Source of the DNA: Micromonospora orduensis
GTDB lineage: Bacteria > Actinomycetota > Actinomycetes > Mycobacteriales > Micromonosporaceae
Assembly: GCF_006228125.1 (NCBI RefSeq)
Contig: NZ_VDFY01000190.1
Span: forward strand, 1 to 64,000
Direction: 5' to 3'
DNA: 64,000 nucleotides
The position numbers and the translations under genes are program-made. The notes under the pieces are model-generated. The model was not told the origin of the DNA. It ran no database searches and saw only the letters and a list, made by a program, of their open reading frames with translations. Within the stretch, counting starts at the first letter, position 1, and the number at the start of each line of letters is the position of its first letter. Positions 44,609 through 58,899 of this stretch are shown here, piece after piece.

Positions 44609-46042
44609 TCACCAGTGCCCGCCGGCCGGCGCCTCGATGTGCACCGCCTTGGTGGCCGTGAACTCGTCCAGCAGCTCCGGGCCGTAGCCGAAGCCCTGCC
44701 CGCTGGCACCGCGTGGATGCGCGGCGCCGCCCGGCGCCCCGCCGAACACCGAGTTGATCTTCACCGTGCCCACCGGCAGCTCCCGCCACGCCCGCTGCGC
44801 GTGGCTCATCGAGGCGGTGAGCACCGTGGCGGCCAGCCCGTACGGGGAGTCCGCCGCGCAGCGCAGCGCCTCCTCGTACGAGTCGACGACCACCACCGGG
44901 GCGACCGGCCCGAACGTCTCCTCCCGCACCAGCGGCATGTCGTGCCGGCAGTCGGTGACCACGGTGGCGGGGTAGAACGCCCCCGGCCCGTCCGGCACCT
45001 CCCCGCCGACGCGTACCCGCGCACCCGCGGCCACGGCGGCCGCAACCTGCCCGTGCACGTGGTCCCGGTGCCGCCGGTCGACAAGCGGACCGAGCTCGGT
45101 GTCCGGGTTCCGCCCCGGTCCGGTCCGCAGCGCGCCCGCCCGTCGCACAAGCGCCGCCACGAAGTCCTCGGCCACGTCCCGGTGCGCGTAGATGCGTTCC
45201 ACCGCGACGCAGATCTGCCCGGCGTTGGCGAACGCGCCGAGCGCCGCCTGCTCCGCCGCCCACTCCGGATCCACGCCCGCGTCGACCACGAGGGGGTCGC
45301 TGCCACCGTTCTCCAGCAGCACCTTCGCGCCGGTGCCGGCCGCCGCCGCGGCGATGGCCCGTCCGGTCGCCGTGGAGCCCACGTGCGCCACCACGTCGAC
45401 CTCCTGGGCGGCCAGCGCCGCACCGACCTGCGGACCGCCGGTGAGCAGCGACAGCACCCCGGCCGGCAGCGCCCCGTCCAGCGCCCGCGCCAGCAGCCAA
45501 CCCGTCGCCGGCGTCCGCTCGCTGGGCTTGTAGAGCACCACGTTGCCGGTGACCAGGGCCGCGCCGAGCAGCCCACAGGAGACCGCCACCGGGTCGTTCC
45601 ACGGGGTGATCGCGGCCACCACGCCGCGCGGCTGCGGAGTCATGAAGTCCAGCGCGTCCCCCGCGCCGTTGAGCGTCCGTCCGCCGCGCAGCGGGGCCAG
45701 CTCCGCGTACTGTCGCAGGGTGCCGATGCCCGCCTCGACGCCGCCGCGGGCGTCCGCCAGGGGTTTGCCCATCTCCGCCGTGACCACCGCCGCCAACTCG
45801 TCGGTGGCCGCGGCGACCGCGTCCGCGGCCCGGTGCAGCGCCGCCGCCCGTGCGGCCGGCGCGGTCGCCGCCCACTCCGCCGCCGCGCCGCGCGCCGCCT
45901 GTGCCGCCTTGCCGACCTCGTCGGCCGTGGCCACCGGCGCCGTGCTGACCGGCGAACCGTCCGCCGGGTCGTGCACGACCAGCTCACCGCCGTCGCCGCC
46001 CGCACCCCACACCCCGCCCACCAGCTGCGCAATCGTGTACAT
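44609..46042 (-). CDS. Aldehyde dehydrogenase family protein
   Basis: 477 residues. The catalytic Cys is in NAGQICVAVERIY and the general base in LLENGGSDPLVV, where Asn replaces the common Leu after Glu. NAD-binding elements TPWNDPVAV and VGSTATGRAI are present. The substrate is not evident. ATG 46042 begins MYTIAQLVGGVW, the expected first strand. It is divergent from the FAD enzyme at 46115; the shared 72-base gap carries two opposed stress-type promoters, so the pair is probably co-induced. Confidence 0.87.
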   Translation of the reverse strand: MYTIAQLVGGVWGAGGDGGELVVHDPADGSPVSTAPVATADEVGKAAQAARGAAAEWAATAPAARAAALHRAADAVAAATDELAAVVTAEMGKPLADARGGVEAGIGTLRQYAELAPLRGGRTLNGAGDALDFMTPQPRGVVAAITPWNDPVAVSCGLLGAALVTGNVVLYKPSERTPATGWLLARALDGALPAGVLSLLTGGPQVGAALAAQEVDVVAHVGSTATGRAIAAAAAGTGAKVLLENGGSDPLVVDAGVDPEWAAEQAALGAFANAGQICVAVERIYAHRDVAEDFVAALVRRAGALRTGPGRNPDTELGPLVDRRHRDHVHGQVAAAVAAGARVRVGGEVPDGPGAFYPATVVTDCRHDMPLVREETFGPVAPVVVVDSYEEALRCAADSPYGLAATVLTASMSHAQRAWRELPVGTVKINSVFGGAPGGAAHPRGASGQGFGYGPELLDEFTATKAVHIEAPAGGHW

Positions 46043-46114: not shown

Positions 46115-47722
46115 ATGACTACCACCGGCGCGCAGAGCGCGGACGCCGTCGTCGTCGGGGCCGGTCACAATGGCCTGGTCGCGGCCAACCTGCTGGCCGA
46201 CGCCGGATGGGACGTGGTGGTGCTGGAGGCCACCGCCGTGCCCGGTGGCGCCGTCCGCTCCGCCGAGGTGACCGCGCCCGGCTACCTCAGCGACCTCTAC
46301 AGCTCCTTCTACCCCCTGGGGTACGCCTCGCCGGTGCTGCGCGGGCTCGACCTGGGCCGGCATGGCCTGTCCTGGCGGCACGCCCCGGACGTGCTGGCGC
46401 ACCTGCTGCCCGACGGACGGGCCGCGGTGATCAACCGGGATCCGGACGTCACCGCCGCCTCTCTGGAGCAGTTCGCCCCGGGCGACGGCAAGCGCTGGCT
46501 CAACGCGTACACCGACTGGCTCGACGTGGCCGAGCCGATGCTGGACACCATCACCGCACCGTTCCCGCCGGTACGCGGCGGGCTGGGTCTGTTGCGCCGG
46601 CTGCGGATCGCCGGCGCGCTACGGCTGGCCCGTCGGCTCGTGGTGCCGGTGCGCAAGCTCGGCGACGAACTCTTCGACGGCCCCGGCGGGCCGGCGCTGC
46701 TGGCCGGCTGCGCCCTGCACACCGACCTGTCCCCGGAGGAGGCCGGCTCCGGGGTGTACGGGTGGCTGCTGGCCATGCTCGGGCAGCAGGTCGGCTGGCC
46801 GGTGCCCGACGGCGGCGCGCAGCGGATCACCGACGCGCTCGTCGCCCGCCTCCAGGAGCGCGGCGGGGCGATCCTCTACGGCGCCCAGGTCGACCGGGTG
46901 CTCACCGCCCGAGGTCGGGCGATGGGCGTCCGTACCGTCGGCGGGGCGCTGTGGCGGGCCCGGCGGGCCGTGCTCGCCGACGTCCCGGCCCCCGCGCTCT
47001 ACCTCGACCTGGTCGGCGCGGCGGCGCTGCCGTCCCGGCTGGTCGAGGACCTGGCGCACTTCCGGTGGGACGGCTCGACGCTCAAGGTGGACTGGGCGCT
47101 CTCCGCGCCGGTGCCGTGGACGAACCGGCAGGTCGCCGGCGCGGGCACCGTGCACCTCGGCGCGGACCTGGACGGGCTCACCCACTACGCCGGCGAGCTG
47201 GCCCGGGGCGAGCTGCCCCGCGACCCGTTCCTGCTGGTGGGGCAGATGTCGGTGGCCGACCCGAGTCACTCCCCGCCGGGCACCGAGTCGTTGTGGGCGT
47301 ACACCCACCTGCCGTTCCGGCGGGACTGGCGGGCCGACGACGTCGTCGGGCACGTGCAGCGGATGGAGGACGTGTTGGAGGCGGCGGCTCCGGGCTTCCG
47401 GCAGCTGATCGTGGGCCGGCACGTGGCCGGGCCGGCCGACCTGGAGAAGCAGAACCCGAGCCTGGTCGGCGGTGCGATCGGTGGTGGCACGGCCGCCGCG
47501 TACCAGCAGCTGTTCCTGCGTCCGATCCCAGGCCTGGGCCGGGCGGACACCCCGGTGGACCGGCTCTTCCTGGCCAGTTCGTCGGCGCACCCCGGTGGCG
47601 GGGTGCACGGCGCACCCGGCGCGAACGCTGCCCGCGCGGCGCTGGCCCGCGACCGCGCGCTCACCGGCCGCGCCTACGCGGCAGCCATCGCGAAAGCCCA
47701 CCAGGCGGTCTACCCCACCTGA
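46115..47722 (+). CDS. FAD-dependent oxidoreductase, phytoene-desaturase/PYROXD2-like
   Basis: 535 residues. FAD binding at residues 10-40 (DAVVVGAGHNGLVAANLLADAG, then VVLEATAVPGGAVRS). The C terminus has LFLASSSAHPGGGVHGAPGANAARAAL, typical of the phytoene-desaturase-like clan. No carotenoid genes are adjacent, so a desaturase role is not supported; PYROXD2-like proteins act on unknown substrates. No ribosome site; a stress-type promoter ends 9 bases before the ATG. Ends at a large inverted repeat. Confidence 0.87.
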   Translation: MTTTGAQSADAVVVGAGHNGLVAANLLADAGWDVVVLEATAVPGGAVRSAEVTAPGYLSDLYSSFYPLGYASPVLRGLDLGRHGLSWRHAPDVLAHLLPDGRAAVINRDPDVTAASLEQFAPGDGKRWLNAYTDWLDVAEPMLDTITAPFPPVRGGLGLLRRLRIAGALRLARRLVVPVRKLGDELFDGPGGPALLAGCALHTDLSPEEAGSGVYGWLLAMLGQQVGWPVPDGGAQRITDALVARLQERGGAILYGAQVDRVLTARGRAMGVRTVGGALWRARRAVLADVPAPALYLDLVGAAALPSRLVEDLAHFRWDGSTLKVDWALSAPVPWTNRQVAGAGTVHLGADLDGLTHYAGELARGELPRDPFLLVGQMSVADPSHSPPGTESLWAYTHLPFRRDWRADDVVGHVQRMEDVLEAAAPGFRQLIVGRHVAGPADLEKQNPSLVGGAIGGGTAAAYQQLFLRPIPGLGRADTPVDRLFLASSSAHPGGGVHGAPGANAARAALARDRALTGRAYAAAIAKAHQAVYPT

Positions 47723-47829: not shown

Positions 47830-48597
47830 TCAGCGGGTGATGTTGCGGTGCTTGTTGCGGAGGCGGAACGGCATCAGGGCGCTCTCGATCTTGGTGGCGG
47901 TGGTCATCTTCGACTCGCCGTCGCGCCGCTCCTCGAAGCGGATCGGCACCTCCAGGATGGTGTGCCCCAGCTTGGTCGCCAGGTAGTGCATCTCCACCTG
48001 GAAGCTGTAGCCGTTGGACTGCACCCGGTCCAGGCCGATGTCCCGCAGGGCGTCCGCCCGCCAGATCTTGAAGCCGGCCGTCAGGTCCCGGATCCGCACC
48101 CGCAGCAGGGTGTGCACGTACAGGTTCGCCCAGCCGCTGAGCGCCCGGCGGTACAGCGGCCAGTTCTCGTCCAGCTCGCCACCGGGCACGTACCGGGAAC
48201 CGATCACCACGCCGGCCTGGGTGGAGAGCAGGGCGCCCAGCATCCCCGGCAGCGCCTCCGGCGGGTGCGACAGGTCGGCGTCCATCTGGGCCACGTACTC
48301 GGCGCCACCGTCGAGGGCACGCCCGATCCCGTCCACGTAGGCCCGGCCCAGGCCCTCCTTGCCGGCCCGGTGCACCACCTCGATCCGATCCGGGTGCTCG
48401 ATGGCCAACTTGTCGGCCACCTCGCCGGTGCCGTCGGGGGAGTTGTCGTCGGCGACGAGGATGCGCAGCCCCGGCAGCGGCAGCGCGAGCAGCCGCTCGA
48501 CCAGCGCCGGGAGGTTGCCCGCCTCGTTGTAGGTGGGCACCACGACGGTCAGGCGTGCGTCCCGCCACGGCGACGGCAGCTGCACGGGCTCGATCAT
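47830..48597 (-). CDS. Polyprenol-phosphate mannosyltransferase (Dpm1/Ppm1-like, GT2)
   Basis: 255 residues of GT2 fold without membrane helices: TVVVPTYNEAGNLPALVERLL, ILVADDNSPDGT, and the DxD motif in QMDADLSHPPE. This is the Dpm1 type, which makes polyprenyl-phosphate mannose from GDP-mannose for lipoglycan and protein O-mannosylation outside the cell. ATG 48597 has GAGGA at good distance; ATG 48606 is directly adjacent to that site and less likely. Confidence 0.9.
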   Translation of the reverse strand: MIEPVQLPSPWRDARLTVVVPTYNEAGNLPALVERLLALPLPGLRILVADDNSPDGTGEVADKLAIEHPDRIEVVHRAGKEGLGRAYVDGIGRALDGGAEYVAQMDADLSHPPEALPGMLGALLSTQAGVVIGSRYVPGGELDENWPLYRRALSGWANLYVHTLLRVRIRDLTAGFKIWRADALRDIGLDRVQSNGYSFQVEMHYLATKLGHTILEVPIRFEERRDGESKMTTATKIESALMPFRLRNKHRNITR

Positions 48598-48729
48598 GTC
48601 GGACATCCTCGGTTTGCGGACAGGGCTACCTGAGAGGGTATCCAGTTGTCGCGCCCGAGTGGAAAACGCTCCCCTTCCGGGCGTTGCGGGCGAGGTCATC
48701 CCAATGGCGGCGGGTGCCCACAGCGCGGG

Positions 48730-50174: not shown

Positions 50175-50373
50175 TGGACTCCCGTACCCACGCGGCGGTG
50201 GGGCTAACGACCTGCGGGTTAGCTTCTCCGGGGCGGCGGGTAAGGCGGACGCGGGGCACCGCTTGCGGCGCTGGCCCACCGCGTCCACGGCGACGTTTAC
50301 TCCTCGGGGCGCAGGGAACCCGCCGCCTGTGCGACAGGACCAGGAGGATCCGGATCAGCGCAGGTCAGCCCGG

Positions 50374-52002
50374 GTGTACGCCCGCGCTGGCCAGGCCTGG
50401 TCCGGGCCCGTCGGGAGCCCCTGCGGGGTCCTGTACGACGCCGTGCTGCTCGACCGGGACGGCACCCTGATCGAGGACGTGCCGTACAACGGTGATCCGG
50501 AGAAGGTGCGGCCGGTGCCGGGCGCGCGGGTGGCGCTGGACCGGTTGCGGGCGGCCGGCCTGCGACTGGCGGTCGTGACCAACCAGTCGGGTCTGGCCCG
50601 TGGCTACTTCACCGAGGAGCAGATGCGGGCGGTGCACGCCCGCGTCGAGGAGCTGCTGGGCCGCTTCGACGCGTGGTTGGTCTGCCCGCACGACGACGCC
50701 GACGGGTGCGACTGCCGTAAACCGGCGCCGGGTCTGGTGCACGCCGCCGCCCGACAGCTGGGCACGAGCGCGTCACGGTGCGTCATGGTCGGCGACATCG
50801 GCCGGGACGTCGCCGCCGCGCTGGCCGCCGGCGCGGCGGGGGTGCTGGTGCCCACACCGGTGACCCGGCCGGAGGAGGTCGCCGCCGCCGGGTGGGTGGC
50901 CGCCGATCTGCCCTCGGCGGCGCGGGAGATCCTGCGCCGCCAGGAGGCGGTACGCCCCGAGCCGGCCGGTGCGCGGGTCGGGACGGCGTTGGTGGTGCGG
51001 TCAGACTCGGCCGGGGACGTGCTGGTCACCGGGCCGGCGATCCGGGCGGTGGCGGCGAGCGCGCAGCGGGTGGTGCTGCTGTGCGGGCCGCGGGGCCGAG
51101 CCGCCGCCGAGCTGCTGCCCGGCGTCGACGAGATCATCGAACACCCGCTGCCGTGGATCGACCCGACTCCGGCGCCGGTCGACCCGGCGGCCGTGCGCGA
51201 CCTGACCGCGCGCCTCGCCGCCGTCGGCGCCGACCAGGCAGTGGTGTTCACCTCCTTCCACCAGTCGGCCCTGCCCCTGGCGCTGCTGCTGCGGATGGCC
51301 GAGATCGGCCGAATCGCGGCGATCAGCGACGACTACCCGGGCTCCCTGCTGGACGTACGCCACCGGGTGCCGGTGGGCGTCCCCGAACCCGAACGCGCGC
51401 TCTCCCTCGCCGCCGCCGCCGGCCACCGGCTGCCCGACGGCGACGAACCCGTGCTCCGGCTCCGGCCGGATGCCCTGCCCCCGCGCCCGGCCGGTCTCGG
51501 CGACCCCGGGTACGTGGTGCTGCATCCCGGCTCGGCCGCGTCGAGCCGGGCCTGCCCGCCCGAACTGGCGACCCGGATCGCCGGCGCGCTGAGCGCGGCC
51601 GGACACCGGGTGCTGGTCACCGGCAGCCCCGACGAGCGCGCGGTCACCGCCCGCGTCGCGGCGGCCGGCGGCATCGACCTGGGTGGCCGGACCGATCTGG
51701 CCGGCCTCGCCGCGATCGTGGCGGACGCCGGCGCGGTGGTGGTCGGCAACACCGGCCCCGCGCACCTCGCCGCCGCCGCCGGGGTTCCGGTGGTGAGCCT
51801 GTTCGCGCCGACCGTCCCGTTCGGACAGTGGGGGCCGTACCGGGTGCCGACCGTCCGACTCGGGGACGCCGCCGCGCCCTGCCGGGACACCCGGGCCGCC
51901 AGCTGCCCGGTCCCCGGACACCCGTGCCTGAGCGACGTGGAGCCGGCCGAGGTGGTCGAGGCGCTGCGGGCGTTCGCCGTCACCGGTGGTGGCGGCCGAT
52001 GA
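50374..52002 (+). CDS. Fusion of GmhB-type heptose-bisphosphate phosphatase and GT9 heptosyltransferase
   Basis: About 542 residues from GTG 50374 (start uncertain; other in-frame starts lie upstream). Residues about 22-190 are a HAD-IIIA GmhB domain: VLLDRDGTLIED, VTNQSGLARG, the zinc loop CPHDDADGCDCRKP, and MVGDIGRDV. Residues about 205-540 are a GT9 ADP-heptose transferase: ALVVRSDSAGDVLVTGPAIRAV, VLHPGSAASSRACPPE, GNTGPAHLAAAAGVPVV. GmhB removes the 1-phosphate before ADP transfer; GT9 uses the resulting sugar nucleotide. Joining the two on one chain is unusual. The stop overlaps the next start as ATGA. Confidence 0.85.
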   Translation: MYARAGQAWSGPVGSPCGVLYDAVLLDRDGTLIEDVPYNGDPEKVRPVPGARVALDRLRAAGLRLAVVTNQSGLARGYFTEEQMRAVHARVEELLGRFDAWLVCPHDDADGCDCRKPAPGLVHAAARQLGTSASRCVMVGDIGRDVAAALAAGAAGVLVPTPVTRPEEVAAAGWVAADLPSAAREILRRQEAVRPEPAGARVGTALVVRSDSAGDVLVTGPAIRAVAASAQRVVLLCGPRGRAAAELLPGVDEIIEHPLPWIDPTPAPVDPAAVRDLTARLAAVGADQAVVFTSFHQSALPLALLLRMAEIGRIAAISDDYPGSLLDVRHRVPVGVPEPERALSLAAAAGHRLPDGDEPVLRLRPDALPPRPAGLGDPGYVVLHPGSAASSRACPPELATRIAGALSAAGHRVLVTGSPDERAVTARVAAAGGIDLGGRTDLAGLAAIVADAGAVVVGNTGPAHLAAAAGVPVVSLFAPTVPFGQWGPYRVPTVRLGDAAAPCRDTRAASCPVPGHPCLSDVEPAEVVEALRAFAVTGGGGR

Positions 52003-52973
52003 ACGTCCTGCTCTGGCACGTGCACGGCTCCTGGACCACGTCGTTCGTGCACGGCAGTCACCGCTACCTCATCCCCACCACACCCGACCGGGGTCCCTAC
52101 GGCCTCGGCCGGGCCCGCACCTACCCGTGGCCGGACACCGCCATCGAGGTCAGCCCCGACGAGCTGCCCGGCACCGACGTCGACCTGGTCATCCTGCAAC
52201 GGCCCGAGGAGATCGACCTGGCCGAACAGTGGCTGGGCCGCCGCCCCGGCCGGGACGTCCCCGCCATCTACGTCGAGCACAACACCCCCAAGGGCGACGT
52301 GCCGAACACGCGCCACCCGATGGCCGGCCGTGACGACCTGCTCATCGCCCACGTCACCGGCTTCAACCAGATCTTCTGGGACACCGGCGCCAGCCGCACC
52401 ACAGTGGTCGACCACGGCATCGTCGCCCCCGCCGTGTCCTACACCGGCGAGCTGGACCGGCTCGCCGTCGTGATCAACGAGCCGGTGCGCCGGGGGCGGG
52501 TCACCGGCACCGACCTGCTGCCCCGCTTCGCCGAGATCGCGCCGCTGGACGTGTTCGGCATGGGCGTCGCCGGCCTCGCCGACCACCTGGGCCTGAGCGC
52601 CGACCGGCTCACCAGCCACGACGACGTACCCCAGGACCGGATGCACGCCGAACTGGCCCGGCGGCGCGCGTACCTGCACCTGTGCCGCTGGACCTCGCTC
52701 GGGCTCAGCCTCATCGAGGCCATGGCGATCGGCATGCCGGTCGTCGCGCTCGCCACCACCGAGGCGGTGACGGCCGTACCCCCGGCGGCGGGGGCACTCG
52801 CCACCCGGACGGACACCCTGCTCGACGCCGCCCGCCGGTTCATCGCCGAACCGGAGGCCGCGCGTCAGGCCGGCGCGGTGGCACGGACCGCCGCACGGGA
52901 CAGATACGGCCTCGACCGTTTCCTCGCTGACTGGGACCGGCTGCTGGAGGAGGAAGTATGCGGATCGCGATGA
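51999..52973 (+). CDS. Glycosyltransferase (GT4-like)
   Basis: 324 residues. MNVLLWHVHGSWTTSFVHGSHRYLIP starts a GT-B N-terminal domain; LHLCRWTSLGLSLIEAMAIGMPVVAL is the donor-site acidic motif of GT4. The acceptor is unknown. ATG 51999 overlaps the preceding stop and the 3' end overlaps the next gene by 16 bases, so it is fully embedded in the operon and should act on the same glycan. Confidence 0.85.
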   Translation: MNVLLWHVHGSWTTSFVHGSHRYLIPTTPDRGPYGLGRARTYPWPDTAIEVSPDELPGTDVDLVILQRPEEIDLAEQWLGRRPGRDVPAIYVEHNTPKGDVPNTRHPMAGRDDLLIAHVTGFNQIFWDTGASRTTVVDHGIVAPAVSYTGELDRLAVVINEPVRRGRVTGTDLLPRFAEIAPLDVFGMGVAGLADHLGLSADRLTSHDDVPQDRMHAELARRRAYLHLCRWTSLGLSLIEAMAIGMPVVALATTEAVTAVPPAAGALATRTDTLLDAARRFIAEPEAARQAGAVARTAARDRYGLDRFLADWDRLLEEEVCGSR

Positions 52974-54175
52974 TCTCGGAGCACGCCAGCCCGCTCGCCA
53001 TCCTCGGAGGCGAGGACGCCGGCGGCCAGAACACGCACGTCGCGGAGCTGTCCGCCGCGCTCGCCGCCGCCGGCCACGAGGTGCGGGTCTACACCCGCCG
53101 CGACGCGCTCGACCTGCCGGTGACGGTCCGCAGCCCGGACGGGTACGACGTGGTGCACGTACCCGCCGGGCCTGCCGAGCCGGTGGCCAAGGACGCGTTG
53201 CTGCCGCACATGCGGGAGTTCAGCCGCTGGCTGGTCGATCGGTGGCGGGGCGGCGACTGGACGCCCGAGGTGATCCACGCGCACTTCTGGATGAGCGGTC
53301 TCGCCGCGTTGACCGCCGGGCGGCAGACCGGGGTGCCGGTGGTGCAGACGTACCACGCGTTGGGCACCGTGAAGCGCCGCTACCAGGGCGTACAGGACAC
53401 CAGCCCGGCCCGGCGGATCGCCTACGAGCGGGAGTTGGGCCGCTCGGTGGACCGGGTGGTCGCGCAGTGCCGCGACGAGGTCGGCGAGCTGGTCCGGATG
53501 GGGGTGCCCCGGTCCCGGATGACTGTGGTGCCCTCCGGCGTCAACCTCACCACGTTCGCCCCGCTCGGACCGGCCGCCGACCGGGAGCCCGGCCGGGCCC
53601 GGATCCTGACCGTCGGTCGGTTGGTCGAGCGCAAGGGCTTCCAGACGGTCGTGCGCGCGATGGCGCTGGTGCCCGACGCCGAGTGCGTGGTGGTCGGCGG
53701 CCCGCCCGAGGGGCTGCTGGAGACCGACCCGTACGCCCGGCGGCTGCGGGCGCTCGCCGAGACGTGCGGGGTGGCTGACCGGGTGCACCTGGTCGGCGCG
53801 GTGCCCCGGGAGGAGATAGGCCGCTGGTACCGCTCGGCGGACCTGCTCGTCGCCGCACCCTGGTACGAGCCGTTCGGCCTGACCCCGCTGGAGGCGATGG
53901 CCTGCGGGGTGCCGGTCGTCGGCACCGCCGTGGGCGGCATCCGGGACACCGTTGTCGACGGGACGACCGGGGACCTCGTACCGGCGCGGGACCCGCGGGC
54001 GCTGGCCACCGCGATCCAGGGGCTGCTCGACGACCGGATCCGGCGCTTCGCGTACGCCACGGCGGCGCGCGAGCGGGCCCGGTCGCGGTACTCGTGGGCG
54101 GCCACCGCGGAGCGGCTGGCGGAGGTCTACGGCGAGGTGGTCGCGGTGCGCCGGCCGACCCGGGTGGTGGCCTGA
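52958..54175 (+). CDS. GT4 glycosyltransferase
   Basis: 405 residues of GT-B type: MRIAMISEHASPLAILGGEDAGGQNTHV at the start, a central RILTVGRLVERKGFQTVVRAM, and EPFGLTPLEAMACGVPVVGT with the E-x7-E donor motif. The N-terminal GGxNxHV layout resembles MshA and sucrose-phosphate synthase relatives. ATG 52958 has GGAGGAAGT in front. It probably adds a hexose to a glycan that also receives heptose. Confidence 0.9.
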   Translation: MRIAMISEHASPLAILGGEDAGGQNTHVAELSAALAAAGHEVRVYTRRDALDLPVTVRSPDGYDVVHVPAGPAEPVAKDALLPHMREFSRWLVDRWRGGDWTPEVIHAHFWMSGLAALTAGRQTGVPVVQTYHALGTVKRRYQGVQDTSPARRIAYERELGRSVDRVVAQCRDEVGELVRMGVPRSRMTVVPSGVNLTTFAPLGPAADREPGRARILTVGRLVERKGFQTVVRAMALVPDAECVVVGGPPEGLLETDPYARRLRALAETCGVADRVHLVGAVPREEIGRWYRSADLLVAAPWYEPFGLTPLEAMACGVPVVGTAVGGIRDTVVDGTTGDLVPARDPRALATAIQGLLDDRIRRFAYATAARERARSRYSWAATAERLAEVYGEVVAVRRPTRVVA

Positions 54176-54831
54176 TGCCGACCGGCAGCCTGCTGGACAC
54201 CCACCTGACGAACCTGGCCGCGGCGCTGGTGCCGTACCGGCTCTGCGAGCCGCAGTTGGCGCGTTGGGGCGCCGAGTTGGCCCACCGGCTGGTGGCCGGC
54301 GGCCGGTTGCTGGTCGCCGGCAACGGCGGTAGCGCCGCCGAGGCCCAGCACCTGACCGCCGAGTTGGTGGGCAAGCTGCACCACGACCGGCAGCCGTTGT
54401 CGGCCATCGCCCTGCACGCCGAGACGAGTGCGGTCACCGCCATCGCCAACGACTACGGCTACACCGACGTGTACGCCCGGCAGGTCCGCGCGCACGGGCG
54501 GCCCGGCGACGTCCTGCTGCTGCTGAGCACCAGCGGCGCCAGCGAGAACCTGCTCACCGCAGCGCGGGCCGGCCGCGAGGCCGGCCTCACCACGTGGGCG
54601 CTCACCGGGCCGACGCCCAACGCCCTCGCCGAGGCGTGCGACGAGGTGCTGGCCGTGTCGTCGACCGACACCCAGGTCGTCCAGGAGCTGCACCTCGTCA
54701 CGAGCCACCTGATCTGCGAGTACCTCGAACAGGAACTGCCCGCGTCGGCCGTCACCGGGTCGTCGTCTCCGGTTCAGGCAGGGGTCGAGGTGGTGCTCGA
54801 CGGCGGGGCCGGACAGCAGGTCGACGCGTGA
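54175..54831 (+). CDS. gmhA: Sedoheptulose 7-phosphate isomerase GmhA
   Basis: 218 residues, an SIS domain. GNGGSAAEAQHLTAELVGK (residues 44-62) holds metal ligands His and Glu; STSGASENLL is the phosphate loop; TQVVQELHLVTSHLICEYLE holds the second Gln/His pair. GmhA converts sedoheptulose 7-phosphate to D-glycero-D-manno-heptose 7-phosphate, the first step to ADP-heptose. Start overlaps the previous stop as TGATG. The extra C-terminal 20 residues are low-complexity. Confidence 0.92.
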   Translation: MPTGSLLDTHLTNLAAALVPYRLCEPQLARWGAELAHRLVAGGRLLVAGNGGSAAEAQHLTAELVGKLHHDRQPLSAIALHAETSAVTAIANDYGYTDVYARQVRAHGRPGDVLLLLSTSGASENLLTAARAGREAGLTTWALTGPTPNALAEACDEVLAVSSTDTQVVQELHLVTSHLICEYLEQELPASAVTGSSSPVQAGVEVVLDGGAGQQVDA

Positions 54832-54847
54832 GGATGAGGAGGAAGGC

Positions 54848-56296
54848 GTGAGGGGACCCGTGGTGGTGGTCGGGGACACCCTGCTCGACCGGGACGTGGA
54901 AGGGGTGGTGAACCGGCTCTGCCCGGACTCGCCGGTGCCGGTGCTCGACGAGACGGTGGCCACCGACCGGCCCGGTGGCGCCGGTCTGGCGGCGGTGTTC
55001 GCCGCCGCGCAGGGCGCCGAGGTGGTGCTGGTGACCGCCCTCGCCGACGACGCCGGTGGCGCCCGCCTGAGTGCCCTGCTCGCCGCCGCCGGCGTGCGGG
55101 TGTACCCGCTGCCCCTGTCCGGGGCGACGCCGGAGAAGATCCGGCTGCGGGCCCGGGGCCGGGTGCTGCTGCGCCACGACCGCGGTGGTGTGCCCGGTGA
55201 GCCGGGTCAGCCCTCCGAGGAGGTGTTGCGCGTGATCGGCGCGGCGTCGGCGGTGCTGGTCAGCGACTACGGCCGGGGGGTGGCCCGGCAGCCCGCGCTG
55301 CGCGACGCCCTGGCCGCCACCCGCGCGCCTGTGGTGTGGGATCCGCATCCGCGTGGCCCGGCCGCGGTGCCCGGCGTCCACCTGGCCACCCCGAACGAGT
55401 CCGAGGTGCGGGAGCTGGTCCCGGCGCTGCCCGGGACGTCCCGGTTGGCCGCCGCGTCCCGGGGCGCGCAGGGGCTGCGCCGGCGCTGGCGGGCCGGGGC
55501 GGTCGCGGTGACCCTGGGCGGGGACGGTGCGCTGCTCTGCCACGCCGGGTCCACGCCGCTGGTGGTGCCCACCCCGGGCAGCGCCGAGGGGGACACCTGC
55601 GGCGCCGGCGACCGGTTCGCGGCAGCCGCCAGCCTCGCCCTGGCCCAGGGCGCGCTGGTCTCCGAGGCGGTGCAGGCGGCCGTCGCGGAGGCGTCCGCGT
55701 ACGTGGCCGGTGGGGGAGTTGCCGCCGCCCTGCCGTCACCGGCTGGCACGCGCAGCCAGCCGGTACGTGCCGGCGTGCCCGGCCCCGGCGGTGACCGGGT
55801 GGGTGTCGCCCCCGTCGCCGCGCTGCTGGCCGAGGTCCGTGCCGCGGGCGGCACGGTGGTGGCGACCGGGGGCTGCTTCGACCTGCTGCACGCCGGGCAC
55901 GTGGCGACTCTCCAGGCCGCCCGGCAGCTCGGCGACTGCCTGATCGTGTGCCTCAACTCCGACGCCAGTGTGGCCGGGTTGAAGGGGCCGGACCGGCCGG
56001 TCATGTCCGAGGGGGATCGGGCGCGGCTGCTCGCGGCGCTGAGCTGCGTCGACGCGGTCATGATCTTCGACGAGTCGACCCCGGAGGCGGCGTTGTCGTG
56101 GCTGCGGCCGGACATCTGGGTCAAGGGCGGGGACTACGCCACCGGGGGCGGGGACGCGGCGGGTCTGCCCGAGGCGGAGGTCCTGCGTCGGTGGGGCGGC
56201 AACACGGTGGTGGTGCCCTACCTGGACGGTCGGTCCACGACCGACATGATCGCCCGTTCGGTCGCGCCGGTGTCGACACCGGAGCGGGTCCGATGA
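54848..56296 (+). CDS. hldE: Bifunctional heptose 7-phosphate kinase / heptose 1-phosphate adenylyltransferase HldE
   Basis: 482 residues. Residues 1-310 are a PfkB/ribokinase kinase: VVGDTLLDRDVEG, RPGGAGLAAVFAA, and the GAGD catalytic motif in EGDTCGAGDRFAAA. Residues 325-480 are a nucleotidyltransferase: GCFDLLHAGHVATL with HxGH, then VKGGDY. Both active sites look intact, so it can make heptose 1,7-bisphosphate and, after GmhB, ADP-heptose. GTG start with GAGGAGGAAGGC. Confidence 0.93.
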   Translation: MRGPVVVVGDTLLDRDVEGVVNRLCPDSPVPVLDETVATDRPGGAGLAAVFAAAQGAEVVLVTALADDAGGARLSALLAAAGVRVYPLPLSGATPEKIRLRARGRVLLRHDRGGVPGEPGQPSEEVLRVIGAASAVLVSDYGRGVARQPALRDALAATRAPVVWDPHPRGPAAVPGVHLATPNESEVRELVPALPGTSRLAAASRGAQGLRRRWRAGAVAVTLGGDGALLCHAGSTPLVVPTPGSAEGDTCGAGDRFAAAASLALAQGALVSEAVQAAVAEASAYVAGGGVAAALPSPAGTRSQPVRAGVPGPGGDRVGVAPVAALLAEVRAAGGTVVATGGCFDLLHAGHVATLQAARQLGDCLIVCLNSDASVAGLKGPDRPVMSEGDRARLLAALSCVDAVMIFDESTPEAALSWLRPDIWVKGGDYATGGGDAAGLPEAEVLRRWGGNTVVVPYLDGRSTTDMIARSVAPVSTPERVR

Positions 56297-56982
56297 CCGC
56301 CACGGGTCCGAGCGTCCTGGTCACCGGCGGCTCCAGCGGGCTCGGCGCGGCGGTGGTCGCCGCGGTTGCCGCCGCCGGCGGCCGGCCGCTCGTGCTGGAC
56401 CGGCAGCCGCCGGTCGACGGTGTGTCCTGGACCGAGTGCGATCTGGCCGACACCCGGGCCGCCGAGGTCGCCACCCGGCACCTCGCCGAGCAGGCCGGCG
56501 GCCTGGACGCGGTGGTCACGGCCGCCGGCATGGACGTGCCGGGCCGGCTCGCCGACGTGCCGGGCGAGACCTGGGACCGGATCGTGGCCGTCGACCTGCT
56601 CGCGACGGCGGCCGTGATCCGGGCCGCGCTGCCGTTCCTGTTGACGTCCCGGGGCCGCGTCGTCACGGTCGCCTCCACCCTGGGCGTCAAGGCGGTCAGT
56701 GACGCCACCGCGTACTGCGCCGCGAAGTTCGGCGTGGTGGGCTTCACCCGAGCCCTGGCCGCCGAACTCGCCGGCCAGGTCGGCGTGACCCTGCTCATTC
56801 CCGGCGGAATGCGGACGGCGTTCTTCGACGAGCGTGACCCGCAGTACAGGCCGGGGCCGGACGCCATCCTCAACGACCCCGCCGACACCGCCGCCGCGAT
56901 CATGTTCGCGCTCAACCAGCCGGCCGGGTGCGCGGTACGGGAACTGGTGGTCTGCGCCGAGCAGGAGACGTCGTACCCGTGA
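56293..56982 (+). CDS. Classical short-chain dehydrogenase
   Basis: 229 residues: LVTGGSSGLGAAVVAAVA at 9-26, AAGMDVPGR and the catalytic YCAAK near residue 138. It is a classical SDR, too short and lacking the GGAGFIGS start of extended SDRs, so it is not the HldD epimerase. It may oxidise or reduce a sugar or lipid in the same pathway. Coupled at both ends (ATGA before, GTGA after). Confidence 0.85.
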   Translation: MTATGPSVLVTGGSSGLGAAVVAAVAAAGGRPLVLDRQPPVDGVSWTECDLADTRAAEVATRHLAEQAGGLDAVVTAAGMDVPGRLADVPGETWDRIVAVDLLATAAVIRAALPFLLTSRGRVVTVASTLGVKAVSDATAYCAAKFGVVGFTRALAAELAGQVGVTLLIPGGMRTAFFDERDPQYRPGPDAILNDPADTAAAIMFALNQPAGCAVRELVVCAEQETSYP

Positions 56983-57932
56983 TCCTGGTCCTGCGGGCCC
57001 TCGGCGTCGGCGACCTGGTCACCGCCGTGCCGGCGCTGCGGGCGTTGCGGGCCGCGTACCCCGGTCGGGAGCTGGCGCTCGCCGCGCCGGCCTGGCTGGC
57101 CCCGTTGGTCGACCTGGTCGGCGGCGTCGACCGGCTGGTGGACACCACAGGTCTGGACCGGCCGGTGCGGGTCGGGTCGGCGCCGCGGGTCGCCGTCAAC
57201 CTGCACGGGCGCGGCCCGGGATCGCACCGGTTGCTGGCCGCGATCCGGCCCGGTCGGCTGCTCGCCTTCGCGAACCGGGACGCCGGCTTCTCCGCCGGCC
57301 CGCGGTGGGTCGAGCGGGAGCACGAGGTGGACCGCTGGTGCCGGCTGCTGTCCTGGTACGACATCCCGGCCGACCGCGCCGACCTCGGCTTGCGCCGGCC
57401 CGAGCCGGCGGGCCTGCCCACGGGGGCCACCCTGCTGCATCCGGGCAGCAAGATCCCCGCGAAGCGCTGGCCGGCGGACCGGTTCGCGGCGCTGGCCCGC
57501 ACTCTCACCGACCAGGGGCACCGGGTGCTGCTCACCGGATCGGCCGACGAACGGGCGCTGGCCGTGCGGGTGGCCGACGACGCCGGACTGCCGTCCGAGG
57601 CCGTGCTCGCCGGCCGGACCGACCTCGGCGCGCTGGCCGCGCTGGTGGCCGACGCCCGCCTGGTGGTCTGCGGGGACACCGGGGTGGCCCACCTCGCCAC
57701 CGGGTACGGCACCCCGTCGGTGGTGCTGTTCGGGCCGGTGCCGCCGGCGCTCTGGGGGCCACCACGGGACCGCCCCCGGCACCGCGTGCTCTGGGTCGGC
57801 GAGGCGGATTGGCCCAGCTGGGACGGGGTAGGAAGCCACCCGACGTTGGCGGCCCTGCGCCTCCACGAGGTGCTGGCCGCCGTGGCCGAGGTGGAACGGG
57901 TGGTGCGGGTCTCCGGTGCGATTGCGGCGTAG
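56979..57932 (+). CDS. GT9 family glycosyltransferase (heptosyltransferase-like)
   Basis: 317 residues. VILVLRALGVGDLVTAVPALRALRAAYPGRELAL is the GT9 N terminus; LLHPGSKIPAKRWPADRFAALA and VVCGDTGVAHLATGYGTPSVVLFGP form the ADP-heptose site. It is a second GT9 besides the fused one, so at least two heptose residues or two acceptors are likely. GTG 56979 overlaps the SDR stop. The end overlaps the topoisomerase start by 17 bases. Confidence 0.9.
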   Translation: MILVLRALGVGDLVTAVPALRALRAAYPGRELALAAPAWLAPLVDLVGGVDRLVDTTGLDRPVRVGSAPRVAVNLHGRGPGSHRLLAAIRPGRLLAFANRDAGFSAGPRWVEREHEVDRWCRLLSWYDIPADRADLGLRRPEPAGLPTGATLLHPGSKIPAKRWPADRFAALARTLTDQGHRVLLTGSADERALAVRVADDAGLPSEAVLAGRTDLGALAALVADARLVVCGDTGVAHLATGYGTPSVVLFGPVPPALWGPPRDRPRHRVLWVGEADWPSWDGVGSHPTLAALRLHEVLAAVAEVERVVRVSGAIAA

Positions 57933-58899
57933 CGATCCGGGCCGGCCGGGATACCGGCGTCGCCGGCGCGGCAGGGGCTGGCTCTTCCTCGACCCGGCCG
58001 GCGACCCGGTCAAGGACACCGCCGTCCTGGCCCGGCTGCGGGAGCTGGTCATCCCGCCGGCGTGGCAGGACGTCTGGATCGCGCCGTACCCCAACGGGCA
58101 CATCCAGGCGACCGGCATCGACGCGGCCGGCCGCAAGCAGTACCTCTACCACCCCCGGTGGCGCGAGAAGCAGGACGAGGCGAAGTTCGACCACATGCTG
58201 GAGGTGGCGCGGCGGCTGCCGGCGCTGCGCGAGCGGGTGGATCGGGACCTGGACGGTCGCGGACTGGGTCGGGACCGGGTGCTGGCCACGGTGGCCCGGC
58301 TGCTGGACATGGGGATGTTCCGGGTCGGCAGCGACCAGTACGCGGCCGGCGACGACCCGACGTTCGGGGTGTCCACCCTGCGCCCCGAGCACGCCCGGTC
58401 CCGGGGCGGCTGCGTGGTCTTCGAGTTCCCCGCCAAGGGCGGCATCGAGCAGGTCCGCCGCATCGAGGACCCGGAGCTGTGCCAGGTGCTGGTCAACCTG
58501 CGGCGTCGCCGCCGGCGGGCGGACCGGCTGTTCGGCTACTGGGACGGCCGGGAGTGGCGCGACGTGCGCAGCGACGAGGTCAACGGCTACCTGCGCGACG
58601 CCAGCGGCGGGGAGATGACGGCCAAGGACTTCCGCACCTGGCACGCCACAGTGCTCGCCGCGACCGAGTTGGCGATCGTCGGCCTGGCCCGTTCGGTGAC
58701 CGCGCGCCGCAGGGCGGTGGCGGCCGTGATGCGCGAGGTGGCGGACCTGCTGGGCAACACCCCCACGGTGGCCCGCACGTCGTACGTGGACCCTCGGGTC
58801 GTCGACCTCTACCACGACGGGGTGGTGGTGCCTGTCGACCCGGACGCGCCGCGCGAGGAGGCCGAACGGGTCGTGTTGGCGGTGCTGGAGAAGGCCTGA
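57916..58899 (+). CDS. Type IB DNA topoisomerase (poxvirus-like)
   Basis: 327 residues. The N-terminal domain has LRELVIPPAWQDVWIAPYPNGHIQATGIDAAGRKQYLYHPRW. Catalytic residues are visible: Arg in MGMFRVGSDQYA, Lys in VFEFPAKGG, His in AKDFRTWHATVLAA, and the nucleophile Tyr in ARTSYVDPRVVDLY. It relaxes both positive and negative supercoils through a 3'-phosphotyrosine intermediate. GTG 57916 lies within the end of the GT9 gene, so it is in the same operon. A hairpin follows. Confidence 0.93.
   Translation: MRLRRSDPGRPGYRRRRRGRGWLFLDPAGDPVKDTAVLARLRELVIPPAWQDVWIAPYPNGHIQATGIDAAGRKQYLYHPRWREKQDEAKFDHMLEVARRLPALRERVDRDLDGRGLGRDRVLATVARLLDMGMFRVGSDQYAAGDDPTFGVSTLRPEHARSRGGCVVFEFPAKGGIEQVRRIEDPELCQVLVNLRRRRRRADRLFGYWDGREWRDVRSDEVNGYLRDASGGEMTAKDFRTWHATVLAATELAIVGLARSVTARRRAVAAVMREVADLLGNTPTVARTSYVDPRVVDLYHDGVVVPVDPDAPREEAERVVLAVLEKA

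Follow-up and report, generated by a model that had tools for sequence, protein, structure and literature searches.

A heptose-nucleotide operon of Micromonospora orduensis as the putative, reduced Micromonosporaceae form of the actinobacterial cwg operon

In the window analysed here, a stretch of 64,000 nucleotides from Micromonospora orduensis, an operon of seven genes was delineated on the + strand (~50374-57932), whose neighbouring ends overlap or almost touch. As judged from gene order and sequence identity, this operon is the Micromonosporaceae form, a reduced variant, of the actinobacterial cwg operon, whose Streptomyces version probably makes a wall glycan in response to antibiotic stress, and because of this orthology we consider it likely that its product is a heptose-containing glycan of the cell envelope. 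The genes of the operon, in order, were as follows.

50374..52002, + strand: GmhB (heptose 1,7-bisphosphate 7-phosphatase, HAD-IIIA) fused to GT9; orthologue of cwgD and cwgE; motifs DRDGT and CPH..CxCRK; GT9 with the GD aspartate and NTG instead of DTG
51999..52973, + strand: GT4a, GT-B fold glycosyltransferase; SCO6184 position; single-copy locus marker
52958..54175, + strand: GT4b, MshA/sucrose-phosphate-synthase-like GT4; cwgG orthologue; E-x7-E motif
54175..54831, + strand: GmhA, sedoheptulose 7-phosphate isomerase; cwgH orthologue; sole genome copy
54848..56296, + strand: HldE, heptose 7-phosphate kinase / heptose 1-phosphate nucleotidyltransferase; cwgI orthologue; GRSTT motif
56293..56982, + strand: classical SDR oxidoreductase, hldE-linked; not in the Streptomyces cwg operon
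56979..57932, + strand: GT9b, heptosyltransferase-like; cwgJ orthologue; GD aspartate and DTGxxH

Three further features lie around it.

44609..46042, - strand: aldehyde dehydrogenase; accompanies the locus repeatedly, in several families; Cys and Glu unchanged in 20 homologues
50300..50367, + strand: conserved non-coding block 5' of the operon in Micromonospora, from alignment
57916..58899, + strand: DNA topoisomerase IB; overlaps the operon and is conserved beside it, probably outside the heptose pathway

All genes named in the initial annotation were found in this interval on the + strand, including the two GT4 enzymes, which were confirmed by family assignment, but the SDR inside the operon had been overlooked. 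The family calls for all operon genes were backed by Pfam and NCBIfam, the NCBIfam equivalog scores being clear yet below the curated cut-offs, which were set on Gram-negative enzymes; a PHROGs search gave no useful match. The GTG start of the first gene at 50374 is uncertain, and the onset of its GmhB domain is near 50431.

By comparison with solved structures, GmhA aligned with phosphoheptose isomerases, the GmhB domain with D,D-heptose 1,7-bisphosphate phosphatases, and HldE with heptose 7-phosphate kinase and cytidylyltransferase-type nucleotidyltransferases. The zinc ligands H, E, Q and H of GmhA (ligand set from PMC5387315) were intact relative to structures and homologues, the GmhB domain keeps DxDGT, CxH...CxC and GD, and HldE keeps GAGD in its kinase half and GGCFDLLHAGH, KGGDY and GRSTT in its nucleotidyltransferase half. 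Catalytic residues of GmhA, GmhB, HldE, both GT9s, the GT4s and the SDR were almost invariant in 69-87 homologues; the intact motifs originally reported for the heptose enzymes were thus borne out, inactivating changes in key residues were searched for in the same homologues and not found, and the operon enzymes are presumably active. GmhA and GmhB each occur once in the genome, both within the operon, and HldE occurs twice. The claim that the pathway yields ADP-heptose stood as regards its completeness and active sites, but the nucleotide need not be ADP alone, since HldE bears the arginine of the STTR5-type motif (F/L)XXGRSTT (GRSTT is present in the window copy with Y at the F/L position, and the arginine in 71 of 81 HldE homologues). 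Arginine at this place marks nucleotidyltransferases that also accept CTP or UTP (PMC11573728), and HldE may make CDP- or UDP-heptose besides ADP-heptose.

To locate the cwg operon, to which a phosphoheptose isomerase in the literature had pointed, 296 Streptomyces-group genomes were probed with the promoter sequence published for S. coelicolor cwg (PMC6767563, Table 1); 6 matched at ≤2 mismatches, 1 of them exactly (reversed control pattern: 0). The 12 genes 3' of the exact match encode a dehydratase, carbamoyltransferase, GT2, GmhB, GT9, GT4, GT4, GmhA, HldE, GT9, GT2 and GT2. SCO numbers were assigned to them by gene order and promoter, and the order agrees with the published labels for SCO6183 (cwgE, putative heptosyl transferase; PMC5882110) and for SCO6186, SCO6187 and SCO6188 (phosphoheptose isomerase, bifunctional enzyme and transferase, respectively; PMC5839063). 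Seven of these genes have orthologues in the window operon, which are arranged alike and 55-61% identical, so that the operon shares GmhB, GT9, GT4, GT4, GmhA, HldE and GT9 with the S. coelicolor cwg operon (SCO6179-6190; Hong et al. 2002; PMC6767563). In an HldE tree the window copy grouped with the cwg HldE with moderate support (81/86), and the second HldE of the genome was placed elsewhere. In contrast to cwg, the window operon has its GmhB and GT9 fused, contains an extra SDR, which was not found in that Streptomyces operon, and is without the nucleotide-sugar dehydratase, the carbamoyltransferase and the three GT2 genes; since these five genes are missing, its product would not be identical to the Streptomyces product. 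Streptomyces cwg is vancomycin-induced and partly sigma-E dependent (PMC6767563), whereas no sigma-E-like promoter (AAC-N16-19-GTC) was matched over the 330 bases that precede the operon in Micromonospora. The non-coding block at ~50300-50367, strongly conserved across Micromonospora, gave neither an Rfam match nor a sigma-E-like match, and is possibly a promoter or leader.

A survey of actinobacteria, which the initial annotation had suggested, located the locus, among named genomes, throughout Micromonosporaceae as well as in Streptosporangiaceae and Pseudonocardiaceae, and this conservation rules out a horizontal oddity of one genome. The Actinoplanes-type layout comprises a divergent aldehyde dehydrogenase, a carbamoyltransferase, GT2, GmhB-GT9, GT4a, GT4b, GmhA, HldE, SDR, GT9b and topoisomerase IB, and some lineages have an additional nucleotide-sugar dehydratase-like gene or a UDP-glucose dehydrogenase. 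The window form is without the carbamoyltransferase and the membrane GT2 that are present in most relatives; the carbamoyltransferase of relatives has both Pfam domains, and none was detected elsewhere in the genome by a search whose control was positive. Since distantly related families share the fuller layout, it is simpler to suppose that both genes were lost in the Micromonospora line. Two cwg-type loci, one per type, occur in some genomes of the genus, and the second of them (L062, L095, L101, L108 and L114) has retained the carbamoyltransferase and GT2 and has an alpha/beta hydrolase gene behind it. A single 619-aa protein combines GT4b and GmhA in one actinobacterium (L042:9387-11246, - strand).

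The transferases were conserved in their own motifs. In GT9b, neither the GD aspartate nor DTGxxH varies among 84 homologues, and the same holds among 78 homologues for the E-x7-E motif of GT4b, which resembles MshA and sucrose-phosphate synthase. GT4a, modelled as a GT-B glycosyltransferase and having no close solved relative, had a single match in all 8 genomes examined and marks the locus cleanly. The description of two GT9 heptosyltransferases was upheld at the family level but not at the donor level, since in the GmhB-fused GT9 every aligned homologue of the subfamily (73/73) has Asn, giving NTG rather than the DTG seen in GT9b, and its donor may therefore differ from that of GT9b.

Taken together, GmhA, HldE and GmhB would make a heptose nucleotide and be coupled to this glycosyltransferase set, whose two GT9 and two GT4 enzymes would build a short heptose-containing oligosaccharide on the cytoplasmic side of the membrane; within the cell envelope, the oligosaccharide would finally belong to a wall glycan or glycolipid related to stress. 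We infer the heptose content of this product, its envelope site and the role of the SDR. Among the destinations listed initially (lipoglycan, wall polymer, glycoprotein or natural product), a cell-wall glycan appears best supported, by analogy with the Streptomyces orthologue, which is under sigma-E control and responds to vancomycin. The operon contains no flippase, no polymerase and no priming transferase, and does not account for how the product is exported and attached. The same lack of export and polymerisation genes would suit a diffusible small molecule, either a natural product or an intracellular heptose glycoside, as in septacidin biosynthesis, for which Streptomyces uses ADP-heptose, and the likeness of GT4b to enzymes that glycosylate small soluble acceptors points the same way; this is nevertheless unlikely, because many families keep the locus with its gene order nearly fixed, the Streptomyces orthologue is under envelope-stress control by sigma-E, and the locus is without any scaffold-building biosynthetic gene. 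Attachment of heptose to proteins, as by the E. coli autotransporter heptosyltransferases that use ADP-heptose, has a known precedent and would agree with the absence of lipid-carrier genes from the operon, but it appears very improbable, since the 4-5 different glycosyltransferases and the carbamoyltransferase of most relatives point to an oligosaccharide and the locus encodes no evident substrate protein.

Activated heptose is familiar chiefly from the Gram-negative outer membrane. The operon shares with the LPS inner-core (L,D-heptose) pathway the four steps from sedoheptulose 7-phosphate to nucleotide sugar as well as GT9 transferases, but has no HldD and no LPS context, and its transferases belong to distant subfamilies. 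The lack of HldD noted in the initial annotation, together with its proposal to search the remaining genome, could be extended to the whole of the 100% complete assembly, in which the best HldD-family match reached 114 bits against a cut-off of 274.6; likewise, no HldD was found at E 1e-55 in 296 actinobacterial genomes, for which the E. coli and Caulobacter controls were positive. The missing HldD and the missing LPS context rule out an LPS-type use. Direct use of D,D-heptose, also proposed initially, is likely but not certain, given that the operon also holds a conserved SDR.

This SDR (229 residues) has TGxxxGxG, Ser and YxxxK intact and is 98% identical to its M. parastrephiae counterpart; as a classical SDR, it was rejected as an HldD homologue at the family level. 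Its profile matched 22 of 296 genomes (E ≤1e-45). The strong matches (E ≤1.6e-74), 20 in number, all begin 20-197 bases 3' of the HldE domain on the same strand, and the remaining 2 lie within 3 kb of an hldE. Asp36 is invariant in 87 homologues, and presumably reflects NAD as cofactor. The structure model (pLDDT 87) resembles ordinary classical SDRs, including aldohexose and sorbitol dehydrogenases. We infer that the probable role of the SDR is oxidation or epimerisation, either of the heptose or of the glycoside as it grows. That it is specifically a non-orthologous replacement of HldD yielding L,D-heptose, which would be compatible with any destination of the sugar, is decidedly unlikely: its constant position behind HldE in the 20 strong-match genomes, the absence of HldD from all 296 genomes, the invariant catalytic residues and Asp36, and the use of NAD by HldD as well would fit such a role, but HldD is an extended SDR, the closest folds are ordinary alcohol and sugar dehydrogenases, and Streptomyces cwg has neither the SDR nor HldD, showing that the pathway can run without either. 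A broader proposal, which we put forward as tentative and rather doubtful, is that cwg-type operons in many actinomycetes make a heptose-based wall glycan, carbamoylated in most lineages, and that the hldE-linked classical SDR either takes the place of HldD or introduces a new modification of the heptose.

That actinobacteria synthesise heptose nucleotides has been published before: both septacidin biosynthesis (Tang et al. 2018) and the tridomain NDP-heptose synthetases (Tang et al. 2022) are cited as likewise proceeding from sedoheptulose 7-phosphate to a heptose nucleotide, whereas the window operon encodes GmhA apart from HldE, alongside enzymes that build a glycan. A literature search that covered few subscription papers found no paper joining cwg with heptose and no mention of the hldE-linked SDR or the reduced Micromonospora form, and gave nothing useful on heptose in Gram-positive walls; the full heptose pathway in cwg, the SDR linkage and the reduced form appear new within that search, which is not proof of novelty. 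The conserved cwg core is a full heptose-nucleotide pathway common to several actinobacterial families, whose product is directly testable by sugar analysis. It is relevant to the response of actinomycetes to antibiotics that target the wall, and to the question of which Gram-positive bacteria could release heptose nucleotides that activate ALPK1.

Several neighbouring genes were also recorded. A GT2 like polyprenol-phosphate mannose synthases (47830-48606, - strand) adjoins the operon in nearly all Micromonospora loci and may supply a lipid-linked sugar. Between the aldehyde dehydrogenase, which could act together with the SDR, and the operon lies a CrtI/CrtO-like FAD oxidoreductase (46115-47722, + strand), which is found at the locus in Micromonospora, Salinispora and Plantactinospora and not in Actinoplanes-type loci. 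The second hldE of the genome (591 aa) is on another contig (L033:5999-9762, contig C210), followed by a GT2 and a convergent GT9. That locus resembles the operon in combining HldE, GT2 and GT9, but belongs to a distinct HldE lineage and has no GmhA or GmhB beside it; it was also observed in another genome of the genus (L036).
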